This document shows, piece by piece, positions 35,894 through 58,463 of a stretch of DNA of 64,000 bases. Origin of the DNA: Morchella semilibera (taxonomy: Eukaryota > Ascomycota > Pezizomycetes > Pezizales > Morchellaceae); contig CM018605.1 of the NCBI GenBank assembly GCA_009192285.1, forward strand, positions 2,087,247 to 2,151,246, given 5' to 3'. Below the pieces are notes generated by a model. That model did no database searches, was not told where the DNA came from, and saw only the letters and a list, made by a program, of their open reading frames with translations. A program made the translations under genes and the position numbers. Within the stretch, counting starts at the first letter, position 1; the number at the start of each line of letters is the position of its first letter.

Positions 35894-36328
35894 TATGGTG
35901 CGGTAAATGTGTCAAAAGTAATTTTGCCAACGGTGGTAAATTATTTTACCACCGGTGGTATAACACGCTGAAATTCAGAGTGCTCGTGCACATTAGTCCC
36001 GAAATTAAGCACTTAGTGAATTATCTTGGCATTTATTCGCTAACGGTGGTAAATTAAACGACCGCCGGTGGTGAATTGACGGCCGCCGGGGAATGGGCCC
36101 CGGTGGTGAATTGATGGCCACCAGTGGTGAATTGATGGCCACCGGTGGAATAATACGTTGAATTCAGTGTCAGCGCGAATATGTCCTCAAGTTCAGTAAT
36201 TTTATCCTATGTATTTTCCCACCGGTGGAATGATATGTTGAATTCGGTGTCAGCGCGAATATGTCCTTGAATCAAGCTATCCTATGAAATAATATTTCTA
36301 AGTTTGGAACATGGCGTTCAAATTGGGA
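35894..36328 (+). repeat. Left terminal inverted repeat of the giant element
   Basis: 435 bp matching the reverse of 57,986-58,463 with scattered substitutions. It contains many copies of ACCGGTGG, several as the perfect palindrome CCACCGGTGG, each linked to words such as TGAATTGATGG or GTCAGCGCGAATATGTCC. The right copy holds one more internal unit. Arrays of this kind near transposon ends usually serve as transposase binding sites; that role is inferred here. Confidence 0.85.
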
Positions 36329-36337
36329 CGTATGAAC

Positions 36338-36405
36338 TGGGCTCGGGATTCTGAGCTCGGGATTCTGAGCTCGGGATTCTGAGCTCGGGATTCTGAGCTC
36401 GTGAT
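36338..36405. repeat. GCTCGGGATTCTGA tandem repeat
   Basis: Four to five copies of a 14-base unit (GCTCGGGATTCTGA) just inside the left inverted repeat. A second, less regular cluster lies at 36,831-36,900 (GAGCTCGGGATTCTGAG, GCATGGGATTCTGGG). A single related word, CTGAGCTCGAGATACACG reversed, is found inside the right end near 57,945. The DNA between the clusters (36,406-37,022) has no gene I can support. Confidence 0.7.
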
Positions 36406-37022
36406 TAATTCTGATGGCGGGATTGGAGATTTGGGATATAAGCTGTAGTATGGGACATACATGCTTATGTAGGCAGGCAGGTAAGTAGGTAGGAAAGGTT
36501 GCTAGTAGAGAGTAAATGTACATATTAAATAGAGAAACAATCAAGAGTTTTATTTGTGAAGTTCACCTATGCCAGAAGAAGCGTGAATACTGGCCTATCT
36601 GCGCGTCCAGACTCTTCACTGAATAAAATAACCCTTATATAGATATTACCACATATACTAAGGCTGAATATATAACTCTCACCGAAACTATAGCATCCTA
36701 AAGGACATTATAGAAAATATCAAAATTAATATCAAATAATAATTGATGATCATATGAGCTTTGCATAATCCTCATACGGATATGGGTACGGGCGGTGACG
36801 TATATAAATAAGTACATCTTAAAGTATACTGAGCTCGGGATTCTGAGTACAGGGTTCTGAGCATGGGATTCTGGGCCTGTGATTCTGAGCTCGGGATAAG
36901 CTATGTAGTATGAGGACGGGCGGTAAAGGACATAACTACGAAACACATGTAAGTATATCAAAACACTGGCCAGATTCCTCGAAAATAACACGCTTGATAA
37001 CGTACCCAATCACTGCCCTCAA

Positions 37023-39737
37023 TCAATCGATCGAAAATTGAGGTCCGAACACAGAGGCTGCCCGATGCATATCCATAAGCTCTCTAAAGTCAATTGTCGT
37101 CCTGTATTCGTTCAAAAGCTTAACAGACAGCGCCAGTTCCAGATGGCAGGTAGAGAACTTCAGTAACCCTTCTCCTGCCCCACCCTCAACCTTATCTGTT
37201 ATGCGAATGGTAATCGTTCTATAAGATACGAATGATGTGCCCAGTATCTCCTCAACCAGCCAGTCCAAGGCAGCCGAGGGCCACTGAATCTATTCTTCGA
37301 AGAGCGTTTGGACACGTTGGCACTTAAGTATAAAATCAACTTCATCAACTCCATCCTTGATATCATGTTTGTACCGCAAAACTTCGTTCATGGATTCGGA
37401 AGTCGGGATCCCGGATTGCAGAAGCCAGGAATCGATATCTTCAAGCCGCAGCGTCGGGTCCTCTTGCATCTTTTGGAATAGATTCCGCTCATTCAGTCCC
37501 CGAATAAAAGCATCGAGGGCCTGTGACCGGTTTTTCCACTGGGTTTCCCAATATAGACTTGAACGGACCGCGTTTATGTCGTCAGAAGATTGCAGAGCTT
37601 GTTCAATAGATTCCATTCTCCATCCAACACTTTCAAAAACTTCTTGTAGAATCCGGGGTACGCGAGCTCGAGCACCAGCCTGAGTGCTAGGCCCGCCGTT
37701 CACTATATATCCATCAAGGACTTCCATGGCTTCTCCAATCGAGCCATCAACACGAGAAGAATCCGGGGTATAGCGCTTTCCCTGGCAACGCCAGTAAGCT
37801 ACAATGAACACAACGGGATCTAAACCACGTGGCCACGAGAAGTCTTGGTGGCAAAAGACATAGCTTGCAAGGAGCTTTCCGAACATCTCGTAATTGCGGA
37901 GGTTGGGAGATGGGGACCCGAAATCGGGAATGTTGATCCCCCTAAACATAACTGGGTCCTGGTCCTCTCGAAAGATACGACCAAAGGGACTGCCATCCAC
38001 AAAGCTTTCTGACTCCAAATATCGCATCATAACCCGATGAAGAAACGAACGAAAGACTCCACCACAATCTGCACCCTGTCGTTAATCTCTATGGTCCACG
38101 GTGACTCGATAGTGGGGATTCACAACCCTCAGATGCCAAGGAGTGAGCTCTATAAAATCAAACAACTGACGTATCCAGTCGGGGCTATCATCCCCATCGT
38201 GGCTAATACCAAACCCCCACTCAAAACGATCTTCCTCTCGAATGTAAACATCAGGGCTCGGCCCATATGTTTCTCGCATCTGTGATATTACGCGCTGAAA
38301 ATGACTAGGTTGGGATGTGGGAGTTGCTAATTGAGATCTCCTGTTTACAGTTTCGGGGGCGGCAACTCTCGCGGTTGGGACGTCAAGCGTAATGAGAAGC
38401 GTATCATTGGAGTCATTCACAGTAGGAGATTCCAAAGAGGGTTGCGGGTTCCAGATTGTTGGGCTTAGGGGGTGAATTCTTGGACGCCCAACGCTTCTTC
38501 GGCCTCGAGTTGCACCTTGCCCGTAGGAGCCCCGGGAGCCACGGGAGCCACGACTACTACTTCCCATTTGCTGCACTTGGCAGCCGGGAGCGTACTCTCC
38601 ATCGTCTGAGAGGGTTGGGGATCGTGTGCGTCGTCGTCTATTTGAAGGACGACAGCGCTCGTTACTCTCCGCTTCTACCTCATCATCCTCTTCATTACTG
38701 GTTTGGGAATCCTGAAACACCCCGCGTTCAAACTCGTCATCCATCTCCCAGCCTTCCCATATCAATTCAGAATCCCCATGTCTTGAATAACTGGGGTCAT
38801 AATATGGACTCATCTGGTAATGATCTTTCAAGGTGAGGAGGTCCGATATAGGAGTGATATAGAAGTTTCGTTTATGATTAGCTCTGCAGCACCATTTGAG
38901 AGTTGCTAAATCCTGCACCACATCCCTCCCGAGAGCTACCAACTTTAATTCGCCCTCCCGCCCGCCTGGATGCTTCCACAATTTCCATTCCTCAGCCCAG
39001 TGTTCCAGCCCCGTTGATGTCAAAGCTGCAGTAATAACTCTCCTAACTCCGTTGGCAGTAGAGTCGCTATCCTCGTCAAAATTCACCTCTATATTGCATA
39101 ACCCTCGGTAATCAAGACGTTTACTCTCAGTGCTCATGCCGTTAGGAATCATGGGATCAAAGGGTTGTCTGAGATATGTAAAGGTTGCCTTCCAGTATCG
39201 TCTTCCAGAGCTCGCAACTGGGGAGTTGCGAGCTCATCCGCATACCCTACGGTATGTTCCTCGAGTCCTCATCTCATTAATTCGACGGGCACGAAATTGG
39301 TCTGGCAAATCTCTCCCCCCAGTCCCATATACAGTCGTACCAGCTGATATTGGAGATTGGGGTTCAGCGATGCCAGTGGCCGAACGAGTACGGGATTGAA
39401 CAGGGGATATTGTGGATTCGCTAACCGCGGCCAGCAAAGCGGGGCCTGGAGGGGCTGCGGTTGCTGGCTGAATATACCTATCGCGGGCCAGCTCAAAACG
39501 TTCGAAGGGTGGAGCGGCCCTAAATGGTGAGGAATTGCTCGCTGGAGAGCTATCCGCAGGTAGACCGCTGAGCATGGTTGCTGGCAAGAACGCGTGAAAG
39601 TTATGCCCATGGCCGCACGAGCATATCCCAGCCAGATCCTGAGCTGTTTGATAATATGATTGACAGCCATTGCAGCTGCTGTTTCGACATTCCGCTCTAG
39701 GCCCAAACACCGGCTCGGTGACCGTCGGGGCGGCCAT
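37023..39737 (-). pseudogene. HECT-like E3 ubiquitin ligase gene with three in-frame stops
   Basis: One frame runs through the whole interval (905 codons), broken only by TGA (39,234), TAA (38,082) and TAG (37,290). The N-terminus has a cysteine-rich block (CRNSSCNGCQSYY...CSCGHGHNFH) of possible zinc-binding type. The middle is acidic and Arg/Ser-rich with a GRP word. The C-terminal third looks like a HECT domain: DCGGVFRSFLHRV, then NLRNYEMFGKLLASYVF, a 'FIRGL' segment and, near the end, STCHLELAL, where the Cys would be the ubiquitin-accepting residue. HECT ligases transfer ubiquitin through such a cysteine (family knowledge). Each stop is one C-to-T change from a sense codon (CGA, CAA, CAG). 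Short introns over the stops are possible but I see no good splice pair for the second and third. N-terminal start MAAPTVTEP. Confidence 0.6.
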
Positions 39738-39743
39738 TTATGA

Positions 39744-40035
39744 GCCTAAATACATAGAAGAATTTGTTAGTTGAAGGATTCCTGGTGGCTAGCATTCTTC
39801 AGAATACGTAGAGGAGCATGCGTACCTATGATAGCGGTAGGTGGGACGAATGATAATTGGTGATTGGCACTTGAGATTTGGCGATTGGGGAGCCTAAATA
39901 CAGAGAATTTGTTAAATGAAGGATTCCTGGTGGCTAGCACTCTTCGGAATACGCAAAGGAGCATGCGTACCTATGAAACGATGGAGAGGAAATGATAATT
40001 GGTAACTGACACTTGAGATCTGGTGATTGGGGGGT
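39744..40035. repeat. Two-copy tandem duplication of about 140 bp
   Basis: Two adjacent units each begin GCCTAAATACA and contain AAGGATTCCTGGTGGCTAGC, GGAGCATGCGTACCTATGA and TGATAATTGGT. They lie directly upstream of the HECT-like gene start, so they may be part of its promoter. Short open frames over them are not gene-like. Confidence 0.65.
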
Positions 40036-40744: not shown

Positions 40745-41175
40745 TAGACGGTATATACCCCTAATTCTGGTGGCTGGGAACTATCACATACGGATCTAAG
40801 CACTTATGCACACTTATCAATGGGATTAGATTATACCAAGACATACTGAAGCATATTGAATAACTATAGGTAATAATAGAAACGGGTAACGAAAATCCGT
40901 ATACTATCAATGTATTTTTTAGTGACAAAAAAAATTGGATAATAAAAGGAAAGAGTCACTTAAAATACATTATATGGATACAGAGTTGAGAACTGGCACT
41001 TGATGCTCAAGCCACAAACAATAAATGCCTAAGATAGCATCCCCAATCACCCAGAGGCTGAGTCATCGTCGTTATCGGCCGTTCCGTCAGAGTCGGCCCC
41101 CGCAAAAGCATACTCGGTATCATGAACCATCTCGTGATCCATTTCCGGACTTTCGCCGAATGTGGCCATTATTTT

Positions 41176-42126
41176 TTAGACCGCTTCGGACTCCAGATCA
41201 TCTAATCTAATAGCCTCGTCGCCACGACTCAGTCGAATCTCGCGGATTCGCGCTTCCCATTCCGCAACACGCCGCCTAAGGGTTGCAGGCGCGGTGGGTT
41301 CCAAAAGCTCGGCCTTCTGTTCCCGCCGAATCATTGCACGGCTAAGTTCCTCGATTGTCCGTTTTGACTTCTCTGTGTCTTCCAGTTCTTGCCACAGAGC
41401 CCATTCCTTCGAAAGCCTTTGGAACCAGGCAGTTCCCAGCTCGCGATTTTGGTCTGGATGAAGCAGTAGACATAGAGAGTTGTATTCTCGACGGGATGGA
41501 ATTCCCATGCCCCAGCCTCGGTCAGGATTGACTTGGTTCTGTGGGTTGGGGCTTGGTAATAGGTCAGGAGGGCGGCGGAGAAAATGAAAGACTAATGTTG
41601 CAAAGTTAAATACGGAATCGGGATTAATATCGAAGGATTGATATTGTTTGAGCCTATAGATAGCATCAGCATAGTTTCAAAGCCCTCAATTCCCAAGTCC
41701 CAATACACAAATGACAGATGGGGGTATAGCTACCTTATCATCCCCTCCTTTTCCATTTCGTAGACTACCATATGCCTCGCAACCAAGAAATCACGTTTCT
41801 CGCAGCTATGAGTTTTGTTTTTAGCCCGATTACGGGCGTGGTTTTCTCTATTTTGCCAGGCGCGAACCTGTGAATCATTAGCATCTATTGTTGAGATCAA
41901 CGATAAAATGCTATACCACAAGTCTATCCTGTTCCCTTCTGTATGCAGGGCGACGCTTCACACATTCACGCAATATCTTCATCTCTTCTACCGCTTCGGG
42001 TGTATGGTGGTCATCCTCAGGAGGGGGTCCTCGACGGTATACCCATACATCATAATGTCGACCCAAAGCACTCATATTTCTGAATTCTTTAGAACACCAT
42101 TTGCATTGTAGTTTGGTTGTTGCCAT
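41176..42126 (-). CDS. C2H2 zinc finger plus J-domain-like protein
   Basis: Three exons with closed phases: 42,126-41,917, 41,867-41,734 and 41,653-41,176, giving 273 aa; introns are 49 and 80 nt with GT-AG ends. The start MATTKLQCKWCSKEFRNMSA opens a C2H2 finger (C-x2-C...H, second His likely in YDVWVYRR...HH). The second exon is highly charged (NRENHARNRAKNKTHSCEK). The third contains REYNSLCLLLHPDQNRELG, where HPD sits after a hydrophobic helix as in DnaJ J-domains, then helices with many Glu and Arg. J-domains stimulate Hsp70; fusion to a DNA-binding finger is unusual. The same gene recurs, cut, at 50,089-50,940. It may serve the element by targeting or chaperoning, but function is unknown. 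Confidence 0.65.
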
Positions 42127-42275
42127 TTGCGAAGCAGTAGATTTGGGTTTGCAAACAAAGAGGGGACTGAATAGGTGCGGGAGAGTTGAGGAGGGTGTTG
42201 TTCAGCGGCCTGGAGCAACTTTTATGCGGCAGATTACATAATCAAACCTAACCACGGTAACGTGATGAATGTAAC
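41275..42275. repeat. 1,001-bp duplicated segment, copy 1
   Basis: Collinear with 50,089-51,089 at an offset of 8,814 bases with no length difference and only a small number of substitutions. It covers the 5' nine tenths of the C2H2/J gene and its upstream region and ends at ...GATGAATGTAAC in both copies. Beyond that the two flanks differ. Confidence 0.9.
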
Positions 42276-42310
42276 TAGCCTCGTGCCCAGGCTGTATTAT
42301 GTAAGATAGA

Positions 42311-42325
42311 TAGGGTTAGGGTTAG
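42311..42325 (+). repeat. Short telomere-like repeat, (TTAGGG)2.5
   Basis: TAGGGTTAGGGTTAG stands 36 bases after the end of the duplicated segment and 400 bases before the lysine/proline-rich ORF. TTAGGG is the telomere unit of filamentous fungi. Two and a half units may be chance, but it lies at the edge of a block that carries a RecQ-type helicase like those linked to telomeres. Confidence 0.45.
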
Positions 42326-42720
42326 CCGCAACCACACAGCCGCAACCACAGCCACCTTCATCACACATCACCATACAGCCTGGTGAATTTTGCTAGCACC
42401 ACCCAAGCGCGCACCGTTTTCCCCGCGCCTATCATACACGTTCCGTATCCCTAATCTTCGCGCTCCCAAATCCTCGCGCCCCAAATCCTCGCGCTCCCAA
42501 ATCCCCGCGCCCCCATAAACCTGTACGTATATCTATTGCCTCGCTGGTGTTTGCGCGCGCAAACACGCGCGCACCCCTGCCCTCGCTCGTGCACAGTGCA
42601 GGCGAATCCTAGCGCGCGTGCGCTGCCTTTCACGCGCGAGAATCCCCAGTACACGATATATATATATTTGTACTAATCCGCTTGCTCCCTACATACAGAT
42701 AAGCCCGCACGTATATATCA

Positions 42721-45083
42721 TGCCTCCTCGCAAGCGTCCCCCCCCGGCTGATGCCCCGGCTCCCGCACCAGCAAAGCGGGGCCGTCCTTCAAGGGAAGCT
42801 CCTAAGGAAGCTCCTAAAGAAGCCCCTAAGGAAGCCCCTAAGGAAGCCCCTAAGGAAGCCCCGAAGGAAGCCCCGAAGGGATCTCCGAAAGCCCCAAAGA
42901 AACCCTCAAAGGAAGCCCCAAAGGAAGTTACGCACGGCAAAGAATCGGAGACCGCTAAGAAGAAGAAGGGCGGGAAAGTAGATAAACTGAAGGTGGCATT
43001 CAATTACACACCCGCATACCTCCGCAATTTCATGCGGCGCTCTACGGTTTGGGCCCCCCGCTGCGCCCGATATCCCACGCTGCTTACTCACTCTATATAG
43101 AGTCTTAATCAATGGAAGCTACGCATGCCCCTTTATTGGGCCCAAGTATTCTTCGTGCGGCGTGGTTTCTCCCCGATGGCCGTTGTCGAGATCTTTAAAC
43201 AGCTCGTACCACCGACAGAAGATTTTGCCGCCGTCGAGATGGATCTGCACGGCGAATTTTTGGCCGCGCACGATAGACTCCTAAATCACTTTACCAAGAA
43301 AGTTAGATACTACGCCGAAATTTTCCTAGCCGCTGATATCTGTGAGGAATTCGTCGGACAATATACTCAGTCTGTCGCCGCGCACAGAACCCGCGCCCTA
43401 CCAGATTTGGCCAAGGCTACTACCTTTGGCTTGGAGCAGCTCATCGAGATATATACGCCCATACTAATAGCAGTGCCCACGGTGAGGGCTCCGGAGGGCT
43501 ATATTGGCTGGATTCAAAGTGATGGTGAGTACTGGGAAAAGCTCTTGAGCGAGAGATTCAGGGTCTCGGTGGGCAAAGTAGTAGTAGCTTGTAGGGCCTC
43601 CTCAATTGATGACCTCGGCGACAATGCAATTGCGCGATGCATTAAGGGCGAAGGCCAAGAGTATATTTCGCAGGGCAGTGATATTAGATGGCCACCTGAA
43701 ATCCCTCTTAGTGCTTTTGAGGAATTCCTTGATCTCGCGCAGCTGTTACCTTACACTGGCGCCAAAAACCTCCCGCGCACCGAACTCAAGGGCAAAGGAA
43801 AGCTGGAAGCCTCCCCCCCGCGCGCGCCCACATCGCCACCCCGTGGATCTTTACTCACCGATCATGATGAATCCGATCACGATGTCACCGGTATGCAGGA
43901 GGAGTTAGAGAGGGCCGCACCGTCTGCTGAAGAAAAGATTCAGGATAGAGTAATGGAAAGTCGCCGTGCCCGTGCTGCGACTATCGAACCAGTCGACACT
44001 CAAATATTCGCGCGGCCAGAGGATCGCCTGGAGGGCACTAATTACTTGGAAGAAACCTCACTCGCTAATAGCCTCTCTGATCTTTATGCGCGCTCAAATA
44101 TTTTCGCGAAGCAAGAAATCCATCAGCGCATACTTCAAGAGGAGTCCCACCGTCTGGACACCATTATTTACGCCGCCTTTTGTCGGCAGAGTTTACTAAA
44201 CGCATCTATCAAGCAACAAAACGCGACACTTAATCAGCTTAAACAAAAAAGGGAAACACTCACTAAAATATACAGAGAAAACCAGGACCTGTACGGCAAG
44301 CTAATTGAGGCAAAAAAAGCGGTTTCCGAGGAGGAGGAAAGAGCCCGCCAGCACCAATTTGAGCTATCATCCCCTGTGGGCGCGCCTGAATTCGACTCCG
44401 CCGCGCATCAGCCCCTAGCACCCCACGCACCTAAGGGTAGCTCCTTTGCCCTTCATCCTCCTGTGCGCCCGGGCTCCAGTTATACATTTGGCGGTAAACC
44501 CCAGCACGAGCGCGTGGAATCGGGCGCGCGCGGCCCCATGGCAGACCGTTATAAGAGAGCATCACCTTTGAGATCGACGGTGGTGAGGGTAACCCCTGAT
44601 CGCGCGAGTGGGGCGGATTCTGCACCGTCACCTCTATCAAGAGAATACAACCCATACGGCTCTCCTAAGGACGTGAATACTGCGTTCTACAAGCCAACAA
44701 CACCTAGCGAAGGCGGGAGTACCGTCCCCGATGAACATTACTACGAAAGAACCCCCTTGGTCGACGATTTGGGTGCCAAAAGCTACTGGGGGATGCAGGG
44801 CGCGCAGAGCGCTGGGGGTGCTAGTAGGCAGAAGGCTACCGACACGCAAACAGCCCTCGCAGCCATACCTGAAAGACACTCCGCGACGCCTACGCCTAAT
44901 AACCCCGCGCAGGGTGATACTCGGGAGGATTTGGAGGAGATCGGGAACCCCGCGCTGGTTAGCGCCGCGCGAGATAGCCCGCGCCGGGTTTCACCGAGGA
45001 TTGATAACTGGGTGCGCCAAACCGTAGAGACAACGGATTTGGAAGGAGAGGGAAGAGAAGTGGGTGTGACTAAAACAGAGTGA
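42721..45083 (+). pseudogene. Lys/Pro-rich AT-hook protein with coiled coil, one in-frame stop
   Basis: One frame from the ATG at 42,721 to the stop at 45,083 (787 codons), interrupted by TAG at 43,098-43,100. The N-terminus has an AT-hook-like KRGRPSRE, then seven EAPK repeats (12-base unit near 42,796-42,880) and more basic sequence. The middle (43,125-43,760) is a folded-looking region (EIFKQLVPPTEDFAAVEMDL; FLAAHDRLLNHF). Near 44,110-44,350 is a coiled coil (LNQLKQKRETLTKIYRENQ; ISEEEER-type). The tail is disordered, Ser/Pro/Arg-rich. I do not recognise the family. It lies 305 bases upstream of the helicase on the same strand and shares its CGCG-rich composition, so the two probably belong together. 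Confidence 0.5.
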
Positions 45084-45387
45084 ATGTCGGCGCGCGCTGG
45101 ATTCATTGTGCAGCGAATCTTCCCCCTTTTTTCTTATATTTTATTTATTTATTTATTTATTTTTGGGAGGGGGGGGGGGGGGGAGGCGTTCTATATCTAT
45201 CGCGGAGTTATTACTTGGGTGCGCTATGAGTCGCGCGGGCTTTTATTTGTGACTGTATCAATATATCGGGCGGGCGGGGTAAAGACTACATGTATCCTCA
45301 TAACCTCACAACATCTTATCTGTATCTACTACATACACCGGCCTATCATATTTGCAAAGAATCCACGCGTGAAGAATAAGCCCAGGC
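45084..45387. other. Spacer upstream of the helicase with ATTT and poly-G tracts
   Basis: Contains an (ATTT)n stretch at 45,135-45,165, a run of about fifteen G at 45,168-45,183 and TATATC-rich DNA. It would hold the helicase promoter if that gene is transcribed separately. No coding signal. Confidence 0.5.
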
Positions 45388-47720
45388 ATGGGAAACAAAA
45401 AGTGGTTGGATGCCACCAACGTCGCACCCCATCCCATACGTGAAAGATATCTCGCGTGCGCGCGCAGCATCGCACGCGCAAGATTCAACATTAAGCTGCA
45501 CGATTGGCAGGCGTCCGCTATCGCGGATGTACTGATGCACCAAGACGTCGTTGTTAGCGCAGGAACGGGCTCAGGAAAGAGCATTATCTTCCAGACTCTA
45601 CCATATACTGTGGAGAATGGGGTTGTCCTGGTGATATCTCCACTCCTGAGCATAATGCATGATCAGGCAAGTACTGTAATTACCATAACCAGCGCGCAGA
45701 ATATCTAGCGTGCATAGTACGATATATCCTGACCTTCTTACCACAGACATCATGGCTTCAATCCAACCAAATTGATGCTATCGCACTTACCGCAGCGGAG
45801 ATCCACGCGCGCCCTGAAGTTTGGCGTGAGGTCAGTGAGGGTAGATATCGTCTTGTCTATGCATCTCCAGAGGTCCTTCTCACCTCTGGGTCGTACTTTT
45901 GGACTCACATACTGCGGAAACGCTGCACGTTCAAGGACAATCTCCTTGCGATAGTTGTGGATGAAGCACATGTTGTGTGGGGATATCGAAACTTCCGCCA
46001 GGAGTATAGCAACCTGAGCGATTTCCGCGCGCACTTGCGCAGTACCCCCGTCCTCGCTCTATCCGCGACTCTCACACCCAACGTATTAGGCTATATTCAT
46101 AAGATTTTACTGCTAGCGTCGCCGGCGATAATATATCGGCAGCCAATCGGCCGTGCTAACGTTACACTTATGGTAATACCTATTAGGCAGGGTTTACTAG
46201 CTGCGCAGCATGAGCTTGACTTCCTGATAGACAGACGAGCGTACACCGGCTCTATGATTCAAAAGGCATTTGTATTCGTGGACAACATTGATAGCGCACA
46301 TGCAATAGCGCGCTATCTACGGAACCTCCTTCACCCGCAGCTATCAATGCATGCCCAGGAGCTCATTAAAGTTATGAGCGCATCTCTGGAGCCATCCACT
46401 CGTGCGCAATATATGGCGGGTTTGAAAGACGGTGTACACCGCATATTTGTGGGCACAGAGGTTTTTGCTATGGGCATCAACTTCCCGGACATTGATATCA
46501 TCGTACAGTGGGGAATAGTGCCACATCTCACGCTCGCTGCGATATGGCAGCGCATTGGCCGCGCGGCAAGGGACTTGAAACGCCGAGCAGTGGCATGCAT
46601 ATTTGTGCAGGAGCGATATATTGTACCGGAGGAAAACGACTGCCCTGGGAATGAGCAGGGGTTCTACTTTGGATGGCGGCGTGCAGCCAATTCCCGCGCA
46701 GAGGCAGTCAGTGGAGGAGTTTCTTGGTTCTTTGTACAGATCACCCGAGGCAGGTATACGGTGCGCGCTAGATAATATCGACCCTGCACTTGTCTGGTTC
46801 TGAACACAGCTGGGTGTCGTTGGCGGGCTGGTGTCTGCGCTTTTGGGGACTCTGCAGGCTGGATATCAGGCGCAGGTATTCCCGCGCCACCGAACGCTGG
46901 TGGGTTGTCTAATTGTTGTGATAACTGTTTCTTCCAAGATGCTGTAGAATGGGAGGACGGAGATTGTTTCATAGGGCTTGCGGATATTAGGCGGTCTATA
47001 CGGTATACCTATACAGCGGAGTACAGCGAGGCCCAGTACTGTGCCCTATTCGAGAAGAATATTGAAGCGGCGAGGGAAAAGAATCTTGCGCCCTGCAGAT
47101 CGGACGTTTTGTGGCGCGGGAGAAGCTGGTGGAATGGCGCGCAACTGAATACAATTCCTGGGTACGCCAGTTATATCCCTCGCTGGAGCAAACAGATCTT
47201 CTCAGTGATGATTCCATCGCCAACATCACAGGGGAGCTGTTCACTATCGATAGTCCAGCAACCTTGTCTAAAGCATTGGCGCCTGTGGTGCGCCTAGATT
47301 GCTCCATCCTCCAGCCCTCCACACAATCGTTACTATCTTGCATCGCTAGTATCAAGGTAGAGATTTCCCCGCAAAGACGCGAGCACGTACAGCCAAGCCT
47401 AGAAAGTACGATTTCACTTTTATGAGGGGCACCCCGGAAACCCCGAGCAGGCATCACTGCTAGAAGTTCAGCGCGCTATCGCAGCTACAGATAAAGCTAA
47501 AGGAGAGCGTGCGCTACAAAGGAGGACTGTTGCAGCGTCACGAAAGGCGCGAGAGCAGGTTGAATCAAGGGCAGTAGCAAGCTGGAACGAGAAAGCAAAG
47601 GGATTAAAACCTGCCACTAAGGCCACAGATAGGGTTGCGCGCGTGCAAAGTCAGGGCCGCTGCTTCAGTACGCACCAGCAAAAAAACATCACGCGCCGCA
47701 AAAGAAAGAGTACATGTAGT
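45388..47720 (+). pseudogene. RecQ-type DNA helicase (telomere-linked-helicase-like), frameshifted
   Basis: RecQ helicases unwind DNA 3' to 5'. Exon 1 is 45,388-45,666; a GC-AG intron (45,667-45,746) joins in phase to the next exon. Motif I is AGTGSGKS, Ia VISPLLSIMHDQ, II VVDEAH, III LALSATL; the C-terminal lobe has FVFVDN, VGTEVFAMGINFPDI (V) and WQRIGRAARD (VI). The frame then breaks near 46,700; a cysteine cluster NCCDNC at 46,910 fits the RecQ zinc-binding part. Further shifts near 47,105 and 47,405 are needed to reach REKLVEWRATEYNSW and a basic tail ending near 47,720. The arrangement and the C-terminal 'W..LY..L...DLLSDDSI' resemble helicases of fungal mobile or subtelomeric elements. 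At least three shifts make it inactive as sequenced. Confidence 0.75.
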
Positions 47721-48551: not shown

Positions 48552-50087
48552 CTAGGCCCACGACTTGGTGTCCGATGGGGACCCTCCAGGGTGCCAGTTG
48601 AATCGTGCACGCTGTATATATTCGCGCAGCGGCGCCCCAGTTGCGAGGCGTGATATTCCGGCGCCCATCAAATCTGTTGCCTCCCAGTGCAGTTGTTTCT
48701 TCACGCTATCCAGCGCGCGGGGAGTCGAGTCTCTGCATATGGCTTCCTCGAGGAGTGCGCGCACAATACTCGCTACATCAATTGAGCTACGTACCAAGGT
48801 GGAATGCGTCCCATAGTCATGCGCGCGAGATTCCCGCTCCATAGAAACCTTACTTGCGTGAAGCGACATCACTTGGCGTGATATCGTTTCTCTGAGGTAT
48901 TGGTCCGAGTAGATATTGCTGCTTGGGTGGATCTTGGCTTTGATTTCACGGACAACGTACTCGCCAAATAGGTCATCGGGCACCCACGCCCCCCTGCGCC
49001 CAGAAGGATTAACCAGGCAGTTGTGGCGCCATATATTTCTCATCTCCGGGGACCAGATTTTCTCCATGCATGCAATCAAATGAATCATCTCTCGCGGGTA
49101 ATTAATATTTTGAGTACCATGTAATTGCGTGGTCCAGAGGCGAACAATATGCTCCAGGCGCCCGGGATCTCCTGCGCGCACCGCCGCGCCGTAATCTGCG
49201 TACAGCAATCCTTGCTGTAGTAGTAGAACCGCATTTTCATATGGAATATCTCGAGATTGGTGAGGAAGTGGAACGCCGCGCTCACAGAAACGCCTGCGTT
49301 TGACGACAGATAATCCGCCTTGTACTGGGAATATAATATCAACCATATCCTCTATTACGACGCGCCAGTTGGCTGCGCGCAGGCGATGATTAAATATCTC
49401 GACGGTGCCAGCACCGAGAGTTTCGGCAGCAAGAGATATTACATGCGCTTCGAGCAGTTGTTGAAAGAATTGATCATATGCACGAAAATCTTTGGGCTTA
49501 GGTGTGCTGATCGCGGGCTTTCGAAGTAATTTAGCAAACCGGAGGATACTGGCGGGCTCTCGACCATCATCCCCCCAGTGCGCCTTGTATATAGTGCCCA
49601 ACATACACATTTGGAGATGGAAGAGGCCGATTATAGGCTCCACGTATTCCATCTGGTGCGTAGGTTCATCTTCATGCCTGCGAGAAACAGCTTTCCTAAC
49701 GGGAATTAGCTTGGGGAATAAAGAGCTGCGCCAGGTACGTACGCACAGTATATTTCTCACCGTCATATAATCGCCCTTGAAGAGGATTAATTTGTCAATG
49801 AGCTGGTGGGCGGTAATATCAAGTTCCTGCAGAATTCCTTTTACGATGTCGATAACCTCGCTGATTATGGCCTCATTCTTATGGAAGGTAGGTAGAGTGT
49901 GAAGGTCAGACTTCTCCAAGGGCAATGGAAACAGCGCGGGTGCAATGAACGGTTCATAACCTGGCTTGGTGATAGTGCCATCACTTGCTCTGCGCTCCAT
50001 ATTGAGTTCTATAGCGCCGCGCGCATGTTTGTGGAGTATGTTCCATATGTTAGCCTTCGCAGCGTCGCGCGCATATTGAAAAGTTGC
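48552..50087 (-). CDS. DUF6589-like protein, 5' end missing at the assembly join
   Basis: The minus-strand frame is open from the N at 50,088 to the stop at 48,552 (about 511 codons). The first ATG is at 50,000 but open coding-like sequence (ARDAAKANIWNILHKHARGA) continues upstream of it, so the true start is lost. Recognisable blocks: FKGDYMTVRNI, VEPIIGLFHLQMCMLGTIYK, LYADYGAAVRAGDPGRLEHI, NYPREMIHLIACMEKIW, NCLVNPSGRRGAW and a D-x2-GEYVVREIK segment. This order matches the DUF6589 family, which is multicopy in many fungi and probably linked to mobile elements; its activity is not known to me. The frame is undamaged over 1.5 kb, unlike the nearby helicase. Confidence 0.6.
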   Translation of the reverse strand, partial: ATFQYARDAAKANIWNILHKHARGAIELNMERRASDGTITKPGYEPFIAPALFPLPLEKSDLHTLPTFHKNEAIISEVIDIVKGILQELDITAHQLIDKLILFKGDYMTVRNILCVRTWRSSLFPKLIPVRKAVSRRHEDEPTHQMEYVEPIIGLFHLQMCMLGTIYKAHWGDDGREPASILRFAKLLRKPAISTPKPKDFRAYDQFFQQLLEAHVISLAAETLGAGTVEIFNHRLRAANWRVVIEDMVDIIFPVQGGLSVVKRRRFCERGVPLPHQSRDIPYENAVLLLQQGLLYADYGAAVRAGDPGRLEHIVRLWTTQLHGTQNINYPREMIHLIACMEKIWSPEMRNIWRHNCLVNPSGRRGAWVPDDLFGEYVVREIKAKIHPSSNIYSDQYLRETISRQVMSLHASKVSMERESRAHDYGTHSTLVRSSIDVASIVRALLEEAICRDSTPRALDSVKKQLHWEATDLMGAGISRLATGAPLREYIQRARFNWHPGGSPSDTKSWA

Positions 50088-50088
50088 N
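50088..50088. other. Single ambiguous base (N), probable assembly join
   Basis: The only N in the window. On its left the DUF6589-like frame is cut without a start; on its right the second C2H2/J gene copy is cut without its last 33 codons. Two genes ending at the same base argues for a contig join or collapsed gap and against a natural junction. Confidence 0.75.
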
Positions 50089-50940
50089 CCTAAGGGTTGC
50101 AGGCGCGGTGGGTTCCAAAAGCTCGGCCTTCTGTTCCCGCCGAATCATTGCACGGCTAAGTTCCTCGATTGTCCATTTTGACTTCTCTGTGTCTTCCAGT
50201 TCTTGCCACAGAGCCCATTCCTTCCAAAGCCTCTGGAACCAGGCAGCTCCCAGCTCGCGATTTTGGTCTGGATGAAGCAGTAGACATAGAGAGTTGTATT
50301 CTCGACGGGATGGAATTTCCATGCCCCAGGCTCGGTCAGGATTGACTTGGTTCTGTGGGTTGGGGCCTGGTAATAGGTCAGGAGGGCGGTGGAGAAAATG
50401 AAAGACTAATGTTGCAAAGTTAAGTACGGAATCGGGATTAATATCGAAGGATTGATATTGTTTGAGCTTATAGATAGCATCAGCATAGTTTCAAAGCCCT
50501 CAATTCCCAAGTCCCAATACACAAATGACAGATGGGGGTATAGCTACCTTATCATCCCCTCCTTTTCCATTTCGTAGACTACCATATGCCTCGCAACCAA
50601 GAAATCACGTTTCTCGCGGCTATGAGTTTTGTTTTTAGCCCGATTACGGGCGTAGCTTTCTCTATTTTGCCGGGCGCGAACCTGTGAATCATTAGCATCT
50701 ATTGTTGAGATCAACGATAAAATGCTATACCGCAAGTCTATCCTGTTCCCTTCTGTATGCAGGGCGACGCTTCACACCTTCACGCAATATCTTCATCTCT
50801 TCTACCGCTTCGGGTGTATGGTGGTCATCCTCAGGAGGGGGTCCTCGACGGTATACCCATACATCATAATGTCGACCCAAAGCACTCATATTTCTGAATT
50901 CTTTAGAACACCATTTGCATTGTGGTTTGGTTGTTGCCAT
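50089..50940 (-). pseudogene. Second copy of the C2H2/J-domain-like gene, 3' truncated
   Basis: Same exon structure as 41,176-42,126: 50,940-50,731, 50,681-50,548 and 50,467-50,089. Splice sites and frames are kept. Substitutions include E for K and A for G in the coding part. The last exon stops at the N, losing the end of the protein. It lies within copy 2 of the 1,001-bp duplicated segment (50,089-51,089). If the join is artificial, the gene could be complete in the genome. Confidence 0.65.
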
Positions 50941-51283
50941 TTGCGAAGCAGTAGATTTGGGTTTGCAAACAAAGAGGGGACTGAATAGGTGCGGGAGAGT
51001 TGAGGAGGGTGTTGTTCAGCGGCCTGGGGCAACTTTTATGCAGCAGATTACATAATCAAACCTAACCACGGTAACGTGATGAATGTAACGCCCAGAACGT
51101 AGTTCCTGGCATGCGTGATAGTTTGTAGCATTATTTCCATTCCCTGCGTTAATTGATATCACGATTACTGAAAAGGGTTAGGTTTCTAATTTAGCCTAAC
51201 CGCCAGCCAGATTGTATAGAATATATACATTCATCTCCGAACTAGGAGCCACCACCACGACCTTATTCTAGTTTATTCCCAAA

Positions 51284-51845
51284 TCATGCAGCGCCTATTA
51301 TGTAGAGGAATATTTGCTGTCTAAGTACCTTGCTGCTCCTTGGTAATGATTGGCAACCATGATATTGAGCGGCGTTGTAGAATATAAGGAGATCGCGCAG
51401 ATTATCGCTGGTCAGAGCCGTAAACCCATCCCAAGTAAAAGGGAACCTGGGTGAGAATTCCATGTATTCATTGACTATTGGTTCCAAGAAGGCAGCTTGG
51501 TTGAGTGGAGCTAACCTGTTCTTCAATCGTGCCATACAGTTATGTTCTCTATCACAGATATAAGTCATTGCCTCCAGATCACGGACCCGGAGCTATGGGG
51601 CCTACATACGCTGCATAGATACGTTGTAACGTGCTCGGCGGGCCGGGCATAGGATCCCCGGCAACAGGCCTGGTTGCCCTAGCGGCGACCCGAAAGGTCG
51701 TCGCTAGGGTCCTTCCGCTGAACAATAAACTCCGACCCGCAATGAGGGCTGGCGGCGGAACGCCGGGAGGCATCACGACGGGAGCCCAGACCCCGCGATA
51801 TCTACCAATTGGAGCAATAAATGGGGTGCCAGCATTAGCCGCCAT
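51284..51845 (-). CDS. Hypothetical protein of the giant element
   Basis: Two minus-strand frames, 51,845-51,579 (start MAANAGTPFIAPIGRYRGVW) and 51,568-51,284 (LKNRLAPLNQAAFLEPIVNE...FTWDGFTALTSDNLRDLL), are separated by a few bases and a frame change, so they are probably one gene with a short intron or a shift near 51,570. The N-terminal half is rich in Pro, Gly and Ala; the C-terminal half looks like a small alpha-helical domain ending LYIIGAA. I do not recognise the family. Confidence 0.35.
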
Positions 51846-51989
51846 GCTAGAGTTGAGGGTAGAACCTAACTGAGTGCTCCGAGATGGGAGTTGCGAAATA
51901 GGGACTCTGGGCGGGGGAGAAGATTTATAGTGGTTCAGAGTGAACTCATTCTTTGTTTGATATATAGTTTCAAGGTTTCCTTTGCTGCC

Positions 51990-52425
51990 GCGATACATAT
52001 TGTTTCGCTAGAATCACTCGAGAATCCTGGACAAAGGACGGTGCGAGGTGGGAGATCCTAACTAACCCAACTAACCAAGATACGCTGGCCCACACTATTG
52101 AGTTAGCACATTCTCTATGGCCACGATACATATTGTTTCAATGGATAAAGGACAAACGAAAGCAGGACCCGCTACCTAAAATTGAGAACTGGGAACTGGG
52201 AGATGCGAATATTCTTTCACCGGGGATCACTCGGGAATCCTGATCACAACACAAACGAAAGCAGGACTCCCTACCTAAAATTGGGAACTGGGAGATGGGA
52301 GATGGGAGGGGCGGGGTGGAAAATACGTTGGCTCACACTATTGAGTTTAGCCATTCTCTATGGTGCCACGATACATATTGCTTCACCCGAGATCACTCGG
52401 GAATCTCGGACATGCACACACAGCT
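51990..52425. repeat. Imperfect repeats of about 180 bp
   Basis: Three related units contain GCCACGATACATATTG, a CACTCGGGAATCC/CTCGAGAATCC word, ACAAACGAAAGCAGGAC, CCTAAAATTGRGAACTGGGA and CTCACACTATTGAGTT. They are broken by indels. No coding content. Confidence 0.55.
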
Positions 52426-53980
52426 AGCAAGCTACGTGAAAATCCAAGGGTGCTAGGGCCTGCATAATTACAAAACGACTTATGCGTCTGTGCCACTTAC
52501 CGTAGCTTAAATCAAACACATATGCGTACCAATCCCTGAATCAAGTATAAATTATATTATACCAACGCAGCTGCAAACCATAATGTGCCATGCCTGCAGA
52601 ATGGTGTGTATATTGCTTCTTCTAACCCTCTAACTAGGGCTCATGTGATACGTAACGCCCGCTAGTACTACCCTAACTACACCCGTAGTATGGGGTTTCT
52701 GTTCCCTCTCCCTGGCCTGCTTCCATCCTACAATACACAAACCATCGATCTAGAAGATGTCAGACCTCACAACCTATCGTCGACAGGTTCTGTCAAAATG
52801 GTTTTTTAAGAGGCATGTTATCAGGGAACGCAATGGCAATGATTAATCGCTGTGTTTCCGAACTGCAGGAGAGAGGAATCGTCGAGTCCGTGGGGGGGGT
52901 TAAGGTTCGTTTACTAGAGCTCCAGATTCCGAATTCAGAAACTGCAAGGCTAACTTGTCCTTTAGGGTTGGATCAAGGATGAGAAGGCTAGACTTAAGGC
53001 ATCGGGAAATAAAAGTGTTTCTCGAGAACTTCGAACTAGCTTTACAATGGTCTAGAAGGTAATCAAACTGGGAGCTATCTATTATCGACCCGACCTGACA
53101 TTCAATTAAGAAATCAAAATCCTTCGCCGTGGGAGAATAGCCAGTGGTTTAGGCAGCCCAGGCAATCTTCTACGGGAACCCAGAGGTCGATACCACGGGG
53201 CACGGAACCTGGTGGGCAGTCAATCCAGCCTTTACAAGCACTGCCAGGCCCAGGGATGCCCGCCCAGGCCCTGCCGAAATTTGCCCGCTTTTCCATCGCC
53301 GTCTACGCTAAAGGATGAGAATAGAGTCACTGCTCTGATCCCCATGATTCCAGCTCCCACTCCGCGCCCCGTAGATCGTGTGGAGCTTAGTAAATATCAG
53401 CCGGTGAGAAAGCGGAAGGGAAAAAGCCAGCTTCAACTATTGATTGAGGCAGCAGAGACATCTCATCATTCTGTAGCAGCTCATTCCGGAGCTCTGATTC
53501 TTTTGTCTGCAGAGGCACCCGCGGATTGGAGCCTAAGGCTTCGGGTACGAAAGCCTATATCGTATAAGATACGGTAGCTGGGCTTGGGGCGTATATTTTG
53601 GTTTATTCTTACTCTAGGTTATAAATTATATTTACATATTCTTCTGCTTTTGGCCAAATCGTATCCATAATTCACTTTCGCAAGTTAAGGAAAAGGTTGA
53701 ATGTAGAAAGCAGATTGCTGACTGCCAACACAAAGCCCGAATTCCGCTCCTAGTACTGCTTTGAAGCCTAATTTCAGCATGTTATACAACCGTAGATATT
53801 CGCTAGCATCTACGGTATGTGCCGGTGCACCTCCCAACCCGAATGTCAGTTCTCACCTTTCCAGGTTAGGGCGCATTGGCCCCACCCACACCCGAGCCCA
53901 GACCTCGAGCTCTTGGCGGCTATCACACCAAAAACGGTCGCCAAGAACTAAATATTTGGAGTCAGAAGTTGTTGCAAACA
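52426..53980. other. Low-information stretch inside the giant element
   Basis: Nothing recognisable. A 121-codon frame at 53,212-53,577 includes a basic segment (YQPVRKRKGKSQLQLL) but has no known counterpart and no supporting structure. Around 52,758 a short ATG frame (MSDLTTYRRQVLSKWFFKRH) is soon closed. Confidence 0.35.
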
Positions 53981-53981
53981 G

Positions 53982-54278
53982 GATCCCTGTAGCCAAGAGC
54001 CCAAACTCCGTGCCTACTACAGCTGTGAGGGCTGATTTCGGGATGCTTATCTGCCGTTTGCACCTCCAAGTTGCCAGCTGCCAACACGATCCCAGGTTGC
54101 CCAAACTCCGCGCCTACTACAGCTGTGAGGCCTGATTTCAGGATGCTTACCTGCCAGTTTGCACCTCCAAGTTGCCAACACGATCCCTGTAGCCAAAAGC
54201 CCAAACTCCGCGCCTACTACAGCTGTGAGGGCTGATTTCGGGATGATTATCTGCCGGTTTGCACCTCTGCCAACCTCG
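53982..54278. repeat. Minisatellite of about 93-106 bp, three copies
   Basis: Units start near 53,982, 54,088 and 54,181. Each contains CCCAAACTCCGYGCCTACTACAGCTGTGAGG, then CTGATTTCRGGATG and TTTGCACCTCCAAGTTGCCA. Weaker copies of the central word occur at 53,730-53,780 and 54,465-54,505, so the array was once longer. Open frames across it come from the repeat. Confidence 0.8.
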
Positions 54279-54891
54279 ATCACAATACCGTCGGCTTTGG
54301 AGCCGATATCTATGTGGTGTGGTTGTTACAACCTTGTTTGTGGGATGTGGTTGTTAGTGCAAGGGCCGTTGAAGCTTAATTTTGTGTCCGTGCCCATCCG
54401 CTTTGGCATCAGATCTGCATTTCCAACTGCCAACTACCAACGGCCAACCCTGTCTCAGACGCAAAGCCCAAATTCCACGCCTACTGCAGCATTAAAGCTG
54501 AATTCCAGTGCCAAATTCTGCCAATGCTGGGTTAAGGGTTCTAAATCCTATCGACCAACCAAAGTGCCTATATTCCGACGGTTTGGTTAGTAATGTAGTA
54601 TAGGTAGGGTAACCGCAAGATGTTTCGCACACTACGGTACACATACACTAGATGATGTAATCCAGTACTGCTAACCACCCTGTAGGGACAAACCCCCGGA
54701 ATTCCACCGGCCACGCTAGTGCGTCATTGATACTGAATTTCAGCGTCTCGTGCCTATGAAGCCATTTGTATGATCCTTCATGAACCAATGACGTCTACAA
54801 AAGCAAAACTACAATGTTGGTTAGTTTGGTAGTGTTTGTATATATATATATATATATATAGGGCCTTCTTTCTCTTCGAAATCAGCAACTT

Positions 54892-55461
54892 TTGAAAACC
54901 GGCAACCGCTCTCCTCCTCCCAATCCAGAATCACCAATTCGCAACCAGATCGTTATAAATGTCATCTGCATTTACCGCCGCCGCCGCCCTGCTGCCGCCG
55001 CCGGGATTGATAGAGCTCGGCCCTCTCTCCAGCCTGTGAGAACCACGCCCTTCCAGTACCGTAAGGGCTTCCCCGACAAGCCTAAGACAAGTATCGTAAG
55101 CGCAATAGCTGCCAACCTGTATGCTGTCCCACCACTACCGAAACCCTGAGTGCTAACCTACCTATACAGCGCCTACAATCATTCCGTTGCGGCAATCAAT
55201 AATGCCAGCCGCGCGCAGCGCGCTTTCCATACCAACCCGCGCTATGGGTTCTTAAAGCCGGTGGGAGCTGTTTTGGGGACGCCACACCGCCTGGCTCCAA
55301 GGTGGCATGGAGAGATGGACCGCCTAACCAGGGAGCAGTGGGGTGAATTGGGGAATTTTTATGGCTTCGTTTGGGATGATTCGGTTTCGTTGGAGCAATG
55401 CAGGTATGCCTACGGAAGGCATACGGGTGGGCATAGGTTTTCTTTCTTTTTTTGTTTTTAG
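54892..55461 (+). CDS. Hypothetical protein with one in-frame stop
   Basis: One frame spans the interval, with TGA at 55,147-55,149. The N-terminal part is Arg/Pro-rich; the C-terminal part (RAFHTNPRYGFLKPVGAVLG; MDRLTREQWGELGNFYGFVW) looks like real protein. An alternative start at 54,959 (MSSAFTAAAALLPPPG) in another frame would need an intron. A (TA)n tract lies at 54,838-54,860 just upstream. No family recognised. Confidence 0.3.
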
Positions 55462-55493
55462 GATTTAGTATTTTGAATGATACGTTATGAAGC

Positions 55494-55618
55494 GGGTCAA
55501 ATTCTCGCTCCGGGCCGTAATCAGCACAATTCGTGCCAAATTCTCGCTCCGGGTTATAGTCAGCCCAATTCGTGCCCAAATTCTCGCTCCGTGCCGTAAT
55601 CAGCCTCGTGCCCAGATT
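55494..55618. repeat. 39-bp tandem repeat, CAAATTCTCGCTCCGGGCCGTA type
   Basis: Three full units and one partial of a 36-39-base repeat containing CAAATTCTCGCTCCG, a GTAATCAGC or GTAGTCAGC word and AATTCGTGCC. Located between a hypothetical gene and the transposase 3' end. Confidence 0.75.
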
Positions 55619-55891
55619 CTCGTTCCTAGATAGGTATCTCGTAGTTAGCAGCTCGGGGCTCGGAAAGACGCATTGGTTGATTGGTCAATTGATTGATTAA
55701 TATTACACTATTTTCCCCCACTCTAACTTGCCAATTCCTCGAGTATACGGCTCCTGAGGTTGGAGTACGCCTTTACACCCGCTTCATCCCCAGGCTCATG
55801 AGCCCCGTACTGTATCGCCCAGGTTTCTAGGGATTGTGTACTTAGTCCAAGCTCTGGTGGGTCTTCAAGATGTACCTGCTCGTCTCCCGCA

Positions 55892-57324
55892 TCACCCGAG
55901 GCAGGGAGCCTTTCGGGATGCGTAGTTCACATCATCATCATCTGGAAACATGGGTGCGGACCCCTGGCTTGCCCAACCATCGTTCCACATCCAGATTGGT
56001 GTCTTGGAGCCGGCAGTCCTGACAGGGTGGTAATCCCAGTAAGAGCAGAATGAGTCCAGAGCCTGTTGTATTCGCCATTGAAACACCTTGGTAAGGCAAT
56101 ATCCATCAACTAACCAATCCTCGTGGCCTCGATGAGATAGGATTCCACAAGCCTCCATTTGTTGAAAGAGGGCTCGGAAACGATGGCCCACCTTGATACC
56201 GTGATCGTACCAGAGACGCTCGATACGTGTATTTTGGGTCGATTTGCCTGTTAAGGCAGGGCGCGCACTCTCGGGGTGTAGACGCATCATTTCTTCGACG
56301 ACGAGAACATTCTCCCCGCCTTTATCGCAACGTGTCTTTTTGGGAATGCCAAACTTAAGAATAGCCTCCCTGAAGCATTCTGTTGGTAGTGAATTCGTTA
56401 GGTTTTGAGGCACCAGGAGGCGGGGTCAAGAGTTGGGAGTTGGGAGATGGAGTTAAACCACCATGTACATACCTAATACAGTTTGCGCGTAATTGTTAGT
56501 CCTAACCTGGAGCCACATTATCCTTCGGGGAGAAACCATCTATCGCGCCGTGAGTGATAAAGCCCCACCGGATCAGCTTATGGTGCCCATCAAAGTGCCA
56601 CACACAATTCGGGCCAGGGACAAAGTAGGGGATACGGATTGGCAGTTGGCGAACGCGGGTTTGGATTCTCCTTGTGGGGTCAATCCGTAAAAGACTTTCA
56701 CGAATGCGATTTTGGGGTAACGCTTATCCCTTGCGATCTGATACTGGATACCACAGCCCGATATCCCGAGGAAGGATGCTCTTCAAGAACAGAAAACGCA
56801 AGATCATCAATTTCATCGTCCGTGAAGGTTTGTCGGTGGAGTTGCTTGGCCTCCGCTCGGCGTCTGTACAGAGTTGACCGGGAGAAGTTGGACTCCTTAA
56901 CAACCTCATTCAGACAATATCCCTGATTGATATTTTCCAGGACATCAGGAAGGGTAATGATGATACGCGGCCTGCCGGCAGAACCTACAATCGGGGTGCT
57001 CTGGACGGCCAACACAGGATTTGAGGCTTGCGAGATCGCGACTCTCGCAGAGGAAAGTCGCGCGTGTAGAGATGCAGCGTGGTTTCTCCATGACGCGAGT
57101 GATTCGGGGCTGACGGAATCAGCAAGGCTTGCTAGCTGCGAGATGATGTCCTCTAATCGGGACTTCTGAACATCGATTTGTGATTCCGTGTAGAACGTAG
57201 CTTCTGCAAGGAATATCTCGACCTGCAGAAAGAGAGACTCAACCAAGCTCCAAAACGAGGCCCACCTAGAAGTGGCAGACTGTTGACAAAACGAGCGAAC
57301 GATGTCGGTAGGCATGGGGTTCAC
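55892..57324 (-). pseudogene. DD34E transposase of the eukaryotic integrase-core family
   Basis: Likely the mobilising enzyme of the element, placed just inside the right inverted repeat. Start at 57,324. The N-terminal half has a GRPRI word and a helix-turn-helix (NEVVKESNFSRSTLYRRRAE), then DDEIDDLAFSVLEEHPSSGY. A one-base shift near 56,713 leads to RESLLRIDPTRRIQTRVRQL and the first catalytic block WHFDGHHKLIRWGFITHGAI, DGFS. A second one-base shift near 56,537 gives WLQVRTNNYAQTVL; a probable intron follows from 56,475. The last part (56,413-55,892) has RCDKGGEN and NTRIERLW, giving Asp, Asp and Glu with 34 residues between the last two. This motif set is shared by a family found in fungi and animals; I cannot fix its superfamily name (IS3EU-like is possible). 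All three acidic residues remain, but shifts inactivate it. Confidence 0.72.
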
Positions 57325-57477
57325 GTACAGCAGTCGGAGTGCTTTGAATTCGGGATTGGTGGTTGCGAGTTGGGAGGTGGTGAGGTTTGTGGGGTTAGGT
57401 TTGATCTCGTAGTCGTCGGAGATGTGTTAACCAAAAGAAAAAGGTTTTAGATTTAGAAAGAAAAAAAATACACGGAG

Positions 57478-57628
57478 CATAAAAAACGTCGAAAAAAATG
57501 ATATGCCTTAGTTCCGAAACCTCAGGATCGTGTTGAAAGGGGGGGGTTTCCAACATCAAAAAATTGTTTCAACGCGATCCTGAGGTTTCGGAACTAAGGC
57601 ATATCGTTTTTTTCGACGTTTTTTATGC
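57478..57628. repeat. Long near-perfect inverted repeat (hairpin)
   Basis: Arms of about 61 bases (57,478-57,538 and 57,567-57,628) are near-perfect inverted copies starting CATAAAAAACGTCGAAAAAA, separated by a 28-base loop containing a G run and TTTCCAACATC. It lies 150 bases upstream of the transposase start. It could be a small foldback element or a regulatory structure. Confidence 0.88.
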
Positions 57629-57985
57629 CCATATAGAATCCGGCATTTAATACAAGTTTAATATGTGAAACGAAACAATATAGAGTCTAAGTGATTTTCC
57701 GTGTAACGGCGCATCGGGATATTTAAAAACGAACAAACACCTGCTAAAAATGATTTTTCTAAGACACATTATACTAGTAAAATCAAAACATAGGATAATG
57801 AGGACCTTATTAGAGACCTTAAAAAATAATATTAGAAATCAAAAACGACTACATAAGCAATCCGCGGACGATGAACTCAACGAGTGTAGTAAGAGCTCAA
57901 TTTAAGGATTTATACATGTATGTATACCGATCCCAGCGTGTATCTCGAGCTCAGAATCCAGAGATCCACAATTCCCAGCCAGAAT

Positions 57986-58463
57986 TCCCAATTTGAACGC
58001 CATGTTCGAAACTTAGAAATATTATCTCATAGGATAGCTTGATTCAAGGATATATTCGCGCTGACACCGAATTCAAGGATAAATTCGCACTGATGGTTGA
58101 TTCAAGGACATATTCGCGTTGACACCGAATTCAACATATCATTCCACCGGTGGGAAAATACATAGGATAAAAGTACTGAACTTGAGGACATATTCGCGCT
58201 GACACTGAATTCAACGTGTTATTCCACCGGTGGCCATCAATTCACCACCGGTGGCCGTCAATTCACCACCGGCGGCCGTCAATTCACCACCGGCGGTCGT
58301 TTAATTTACCACCGGTGGCGAATAATGCCAAGATAATTCACTAAGTGCTTAATTTCGGGACTAATGCGCACGAGCACTCTGAATTTCATCGTGTTATACC
58401 ACCGGTGGTAAAATAATTTACCACCGTTGGCAAAATTACTTTTGACACATTTACCGCATCATA
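57986..58463 (-). repeat. Right terminal inverted repeat of the giant element
   Basis: 478 bp, inverted match of the left end. It has one extra internal unit (words GATGGTTGATTCAAGGAC and AAGGATAAATTCGCACTG near 58,075-58,100). It contains CCACCGGTGG palindromes and CACCACCGGCGG variants. The DNA inside it, 57,629-57,985, is AT-rich without a gene. Confidence 0.85.

Follow-up and report, generated by a model that had tools for sequence, protein, structure and literature searches.

An apparent giant transposon in Morchella semilibera is probably a chimera of two IS3EU copies, one of which contains a second transposon

Starships are large fungal elements that use a tyrosine recombinase. IS3EU/GingerRoot elements instead encode an integrase-like DD34E transposase; they have TAYGG..CCRTA ends, terminal inverted repeats (TIRs) of over 30 bp, and target-site duplications (TSDs) of about 6-7 bp, and some of their fungal relatives bear extra genes (according to parts of PMC12730594, PMC10853768, and PMC10045372). 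These include TET/JBP and alpha-kinase genes in the IS3EU-like elements of rusts (part of PMC12730594). Styx from Zymoseptoria is 7.9 kb and has four open reading frames (ORFs): an IS3EU-like transposase and three others, which differ from the accessory genes considered here (part of PMC10853768). We analyzed a 64,000-nucleotide stretch of Morchella semilibera (the window; assembly GCA_009192285.1, contig CM018605.1, positions 2,087,247 to 2,151,246), in which an initial annotation had described a giant DNA element of 22.57 kb. We conclude that this unit is probably a chimera made during assembly: one IS3EU copy (copy I) supplies its left half, together with a second transposon (E2) nested there, and another copy (copy II) supplies its right half. 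The features are as follows, in window positions.

35887..35893: AAACCAG, left TSD of IS3EU copy I
35894..36377, + strand: left long TIR of copy I (TATGG...), from repeat alignment
37026..39737, - strand: accessory ORF of 904 codons (HECT-like by eye only), with three in-frame stops in the window
41047..42126, - strand: accessory gene of copy I; a C2H2-like motif is visible by eye, and the DnaJ-like match is weak; provisional limits, transferred from the C1 copy
42267..42275: GAATGTAAC, left 9-bp target duplication of E2
42276..50087: nested DNA transposon E2, beginning TAGCCTCG, right end truncated; copies elsewhere share the left end
42720..45083, + strand: E2 protein with a basic N terminus, approximate exon boundaries; no family match in the two ORFs scanned
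45373..47294, + strand: RecQ-like helicase of E2, approximate exon boundaries
48555..50087, - strand: DUF6589 gene of E2, N-terminal part lost through the join
50088: single N where the two copies meet; the window has no other N
50089..58463: right part of IS3EU copy II, which is distinct from copy I and carries fewer mutations, from copy comparison
55726..57426, - strand: IS3EU transposase (PF24764 core), frame broken in the window, open in the C1 copy
57942..58463, - strand: right long TIR of copy II, from repeat alignment
58464..58469: CCCGGG, right TSD of copy II

The IS3EU element and its copies

We searched a genome set of 56.8 Mb in 23 contigs (C1 and so on); the window lies on C3. Its size, gene content, and splice-like introns point to a fungal host. 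Copy A (C1:1856063-1869813) is uninterrupted: it is 13,751 bp long and has the TSD CCTATC on both sides. It matches window positions 35894-42275, except for about 190 bp (40555-40743), and positions 50089-58463, and it contains nothing of 42276-50088; instead, the equivalent of position 42275 runs straight into that of 51090. The 190 bp in the left half of copy I are missing from both C1 copies, that is, from copy A and from copy B (at C1:2356387).

As the initial annotation claimed, inverted repeats stand exactly at positions 35894 (where the left end begins with TATGGTGCGG) and 58463 (where the right end finishes with CCGCATCATA). The terminal blocks are 93.5% identical over 382 alignment columns, with a second block at 84% over 115 columns. 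Additional long-TIR ends occur elsewhere in the genome, and a search with the first 30 bases as a pattern (up to 3 mismatches) gave 114 + 130 matches, versus 0 + 0 for the reversed control.

We assigned the element to IS3EU because its ends, TIR, TSD length, and transposase fit the published description (parts of PMC12730594 and PMC10045372). Copy A ends in TATGG..CCATA, and the left end in the window is TATGG. The annotated DDE transposase was recovered as an integrase-type core (PF24764, 6.6e-29), which in the window's version matches five places in the genome. In copy A, the transposase comprises two open stretches of 323 and 233 codons; a predicted 93-nt intron would join them into 535 codons, with a catalytic spacing of D-56-D-34-E. 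The TSD length is seen in CCTATC and in miniature copies: of 21 distinct miniatures, drawn from 30 loci (L009-L038), 3 have exact TSDs of 6 bp and 4 have exact TSDs of 7 bp (7/21 together), and 13 match within one mismatch at 6 or 7 bp. Cross-pairs of miniature flanks gave zero exact matches and 0.2-0.5% within one mismatch. Two observations fit the assignment less well: the window's right end, read inward, is TATGA rather than TATGG, and 8 of the 21 miniatures have no clear TSD.

The IS3EU element looks like a cut-and-paste transposon of 13.75 kb that would move through its DD34E transposase, generate 6-7-bp target duplications, and have at least two accessory genes and many miniature derivatives. 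It differs from the described IS3EU elements in its length, in its TIR of about 0.4-0.5 kb, and in its accessory genes, which are the 904-codon ORF and the C2H2/J-like gene rather than TET/JBP and alpha-kinase genes. The 904-codon ORF is open in copy A (L044:1381-4092). Library scans gave no match for it, and in particular no HECT match, so the HECT-like label, which goes back to a resemblance of motifs, lacks support from the library. For the C2H2/J-like gene, the DnaJ match is weak and under the cut-off (E 0.039), and the C2H2 motif was seen by eye alone. The view of these genes as cargo is half right: the accessory genes between 37.0 and 42.1 kb are indeed carried along by IS3EU, as they are present in the 13.75-kb C1 copy, but the RecQ-like and DUF6589 genes are E2's. 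Also, the initial annotation knew of no such combination of genes, but DDE transposons with extra genes have already been published (parts of PMC12730594 and PMC10853768).

The junction at position 50088

Positions 35894-42275 would be the left half of an older IS3EU copy (copy I) that was interrupted by an independent transposon, E2, with duplication of 9 bp; positions 50089-58463 would be the right half of a younger copy (copy II); and the join marked by the N at 50088 would have united the two. The join is out of register: position 50087, in E2, abuts the IS3EU position that is equivalent to 41275. Because the halves come from different copies, the 98%-identical stretch of 1001 bp that flanks E2 would be the same part of two copies and not a duplication.

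The TSDs have exchanged partners. The window's own two ends share no TSD (AACCAG versus CCCGGG). The partner of AAACCAG is the right flank of the IS3EU end at C2:2768283, and the partner of CCCGGG is the left flank of copy B. The right partner of GAATGTAAC is also on C2 (at C2:2752567), where the right end of E2 adjoins the equivalent of window position 51081 and completes the duplication from the insertion into copy I. Copies A and B correspond to the empty site for this insertion: GAATGTAAC is single in both of them, as it is at window positions 51081-51089. Two more TSD pairs are split, GCATCTATC (C2/C20) and GAGGAT (C11/C2), so five pairs are divided between contigs (three of IS3EU and two of E2). 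Furthermore, when the C1 and C3 flanks of copy II are put together, they can be read as a single host gene with compatible splice phases (judged by eye).

The substitution load steps at the N. We counted private substitutions at positions where copies A and B agree. Left of the N, there were 55 in 4624 positions (1.19%) and 13 in 992; right of the N, there were 2/992, 5/2700, and 8/2421, with 12/1957 (0.61%) in the transposase region. In 1-kb bins, this amounts to 8-17 private substitutions on the left versus 0-5 on the right. The right half on C2, which pairs with the window's left end, has 33/2702 (1.22%), and its transposase region has 31/1945 (1.59%, from positions at which A, B, and the window are identical). 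In a separate observation, 36 of the 55 private substitutions at 35894-40554 are of the C>T or G>A type, a pattern expected from repeat-induced point mutation or deamination.

We also surveyed Ns in 103 retrieved sequences (363,067 bases, counting overlaps and the window). Outside the window, Ns occur in just two places. The N at C2:2743763 likewise marks an out-of-order E2 junction; the other is at C20:4674395.

We considered whether IS3EU/E2 copies on different chromosomes might have swapped halves in the genome itself, through ectopic recombination or a translocation. The five split TSD pairs would fit this, as would copy B, which combines the left flank of copy II with another right half and is N-free in the stretch fetched. 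However, crossing-over between homologous stretches would keep the register and leave no need for an N, while the junction is non-homologous and out of register with the N exactly on it. The right half also has 7 private single-base indels at 51081-53805, where both C1 copies have none; these resemble an unpolished contig end. For these reasons (no homology at the junction, the N, and the indels), we ranked assembly error above ectopic recombination, which we consider unlikely, and we infer that the join is an error. A genuine cargo transposon of 22.6 kb that moves as a unit, the first alternative in the initial annotation, would account for the matching inverted ends and the genes inside. But its ends share no TSD, its halves carry unequal substitution loads and meet at an N, its center is occupied by a further transposon that has separate ends and a separate TSD, and none of the copies examined (part of all copies) has the same internal junction; we consider it extremely improbable that the two ends enclose a single element. 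The annotation's second alternative, an element captured in the center, holds for the left copy, into which E2 inserted, but not for the 22.57-kb unit, which is chimera-like.

Several points weigh against a chimera made during assembly. It was judged from the assembled contigs. Copy B, which has the left flank of copy II, continues to the equivalent of window position 57530, and the 17.3 kb fetched there are free of Ns; aligned with the window's right half over 4923 columns, it shows 12 mismatches and 23 gap openings. Because copy B is seamless and unlike the window's right half, that locus calls for either another misjoin, one without a seam, or a genuine exchange. Copy B itself carries an uneven load: 21/4590 for the left half, 4/2699 at 51081-53805, and 32/2445 plus 10 indel events at 55003-57500. 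In the latter region, the window has 8 indel events, copy A has 2, and copy B has 10, which weakens the argument from an unpolished end. The N on C20 sits 838 bp upstream of an E2 match and off its edge; CCCGGG is short and palindromic; and for the left end at C16:659643, we sought a right partner and found none. The initial annotation had proposed searching for other copies and for an empty site: further copies are present, but searches with joined flanks turned up no empty site.

E2 and its relatives

The copy of E2 in the window is truncated, and a full-length copy of 9.53 kb (C22:1841271-1850800) has the ends TAGCCTCG..CGAGGCTA and the TSD ACGCGCCCT. The consensus ends are TAGYCTCG..CGAGRCTA. 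Other 9-bp TSDs include GGATCCCTG, around a 265-bp miniature, and CAAGTAACT/CATGTAACT, around a copy on C1; for a 0.3-kb pair of E2 ends that is on both C21 and C22, we looked for a TSD and found none. E2 looks like an independent cut-and-paste transposon that makes 9-bp duplications. Its RecQ-like helicase and its DUF6589 gene are convergent, and the initial annotation identified both correctly (Helicase_C, 5.3e-12, with RecQ5 as the top PDB match at 7.5e-13; DUF6589 profile, 2.5e-69).

In the genome, a search for DUF6589 gave 13 matches, spread over 8 loci; 14 control genomes gave none. RecQ-like relatives (33-35% identity) adjoin the DUF6589 loci at C11:939815 and C5:568587, and the genes are convergent, as in E2; a third locus (C11:1924556) has no RecQ-like neighbor among the matches listed. 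We scanned the flanks of the C11 pair for 14-base inverted ends, allowing 4 mismatches at most, next to a duplication of 8-10 bp with no more than 1 mismatch, and found 2 candidates. The better one has the ends TAGTCTCGTGCCCA/TAGTCTCGTTCCCA and the exact 9-bp duplication GGTTGCACT, and it spans 8.8 kb (C11:935519-944323). Five shuffles under the same limits gave 0, 1, 0, 0, and 2 candidates, whose quality was not recorded. From its layout, its similar ends, and its 9-bp TSD, the C11 element appears to be a diverged second family of the same kind.

E2-type ends are also common. Allowing one mismatch, the pattern TAGYCTCGNNCCCAG had 320 + 313 matches in the genome versus 59 + 43 in the control. 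Among 100 listed places, we tested 14 inward-facing pairs less than 400 bp apart as miniatures: 10 of the 14 have an exact 9-bp TSD and 11 have one within one mismatch, versus 0 of 182 cross-pairs. The shortest is 60 bp. Judging from their ends, these miniatures would be mobilized by an autonomous family of this group. Three of them (L088, L094, and L101) are near-perfect palindromes of 60-66 bp with TAGTCTCG ends and exact 9-bp TSDs.

We made three other observations about repeats. A repeat of about 137 bp (window 28644-28780 and relatives) occurs twice in copy B and once in an E2 copy on C2, and it is probably a miniature element. The locus is surrounded by ORFs of Gypsy-like retrotransposons and by LTR-like repeats (window 25422-27521, 29175-30200, and 60931-63180). 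Finally, terminal-motif matches lie at near-equal coordinates on C9/C10, C12/C13, and C21/C22, which suggests that some chromosomes are present in the assembly in both versions.

Classification and significance of E2

The DUF6589 protein is most likely the transposase of E2: it has 14 homologs in a protein search, while the 660-amino-acid ORF has none; its motifs are conserved; and the scanned ORFs contain no other transposase. The aspartate of the SFDN motif is conserved in 5 of 5 sequences, the aspartate of KGDY in 9 of 10, and the GLFH motif in 10 of 10. The predicted structure of this candidate is poor (pLDDT, a model confidence score, of 61.4), and a comparison using this weak model gave no fold match. 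The RecQ-like helicase may, speculatively, open the ends or help with repair.

Does E2 belong to a known superfamily? Duplications of 9 bp are usual for MuDR. Among fungal DNA transposons, KolobokH bears a RecQ helicase, but its TSD is the 4-bp TTAA and its helicase lies downstream of the transposase (part of PMC9587614), while the TSDs of E2 are 9 bp long and vary in sequence, and its DUF6589 gene faces the helicase. Zisupton, Dileera, and Kyakuja (KDZ) are also fungal DNA transposons; the TSDs are 8 bp for Zisupton and Zisupton-1_PGr (Dileera) and 7 bp for Kyakuja (part of PMC12730594), versus 9 bp for E2, and the E2 ORFs scanned have no KDZ-type Pfam match. More broadly, the scanned ORFs of E2 and two scanned DUF6589 relatives gave no match to any Pfam transposase family. 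As for Starships, no tyrosine recombinase was seen in the 20 ORFs that were scanned, of 39 in the window with at least 150 amino acids. E2 seems to fit none of the superfamilies that it could be compared with. Nevertheless, E2 could quite possibly be a divergent member of a known superfamily such as MuDR, hAT, or KolobokH. We tentatively propose that E2 and its relatives may form an undescribed superfamily of eukaryotic cut-and-paste transposons; it would be marked by TAGYCTCG ends, target duplications of strictly 9 bp, a DUF6589 protein that acts as the transposase and faces a RecQ-like helicase, and a large population of miniatures down to 60 bp.

For the locus, these results remove a giant element that is probably false, and they illustrate a cheap test for chimeras: the TSD partner, the substitution load, and a lone N. 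IS3EU elements with extra genes were already known, so the more novel part is E2, with its RecQ-like helicase and DUF6589 protein. If our proposal is correct, then DUF6589, a Pfam family of unknown function, would be a transposase. The family would gain a concrete and testable role in a group of transposons with known ends, target length, and substrates, and a RecQ-like helicase would be paired with cut-and-paste transposition.

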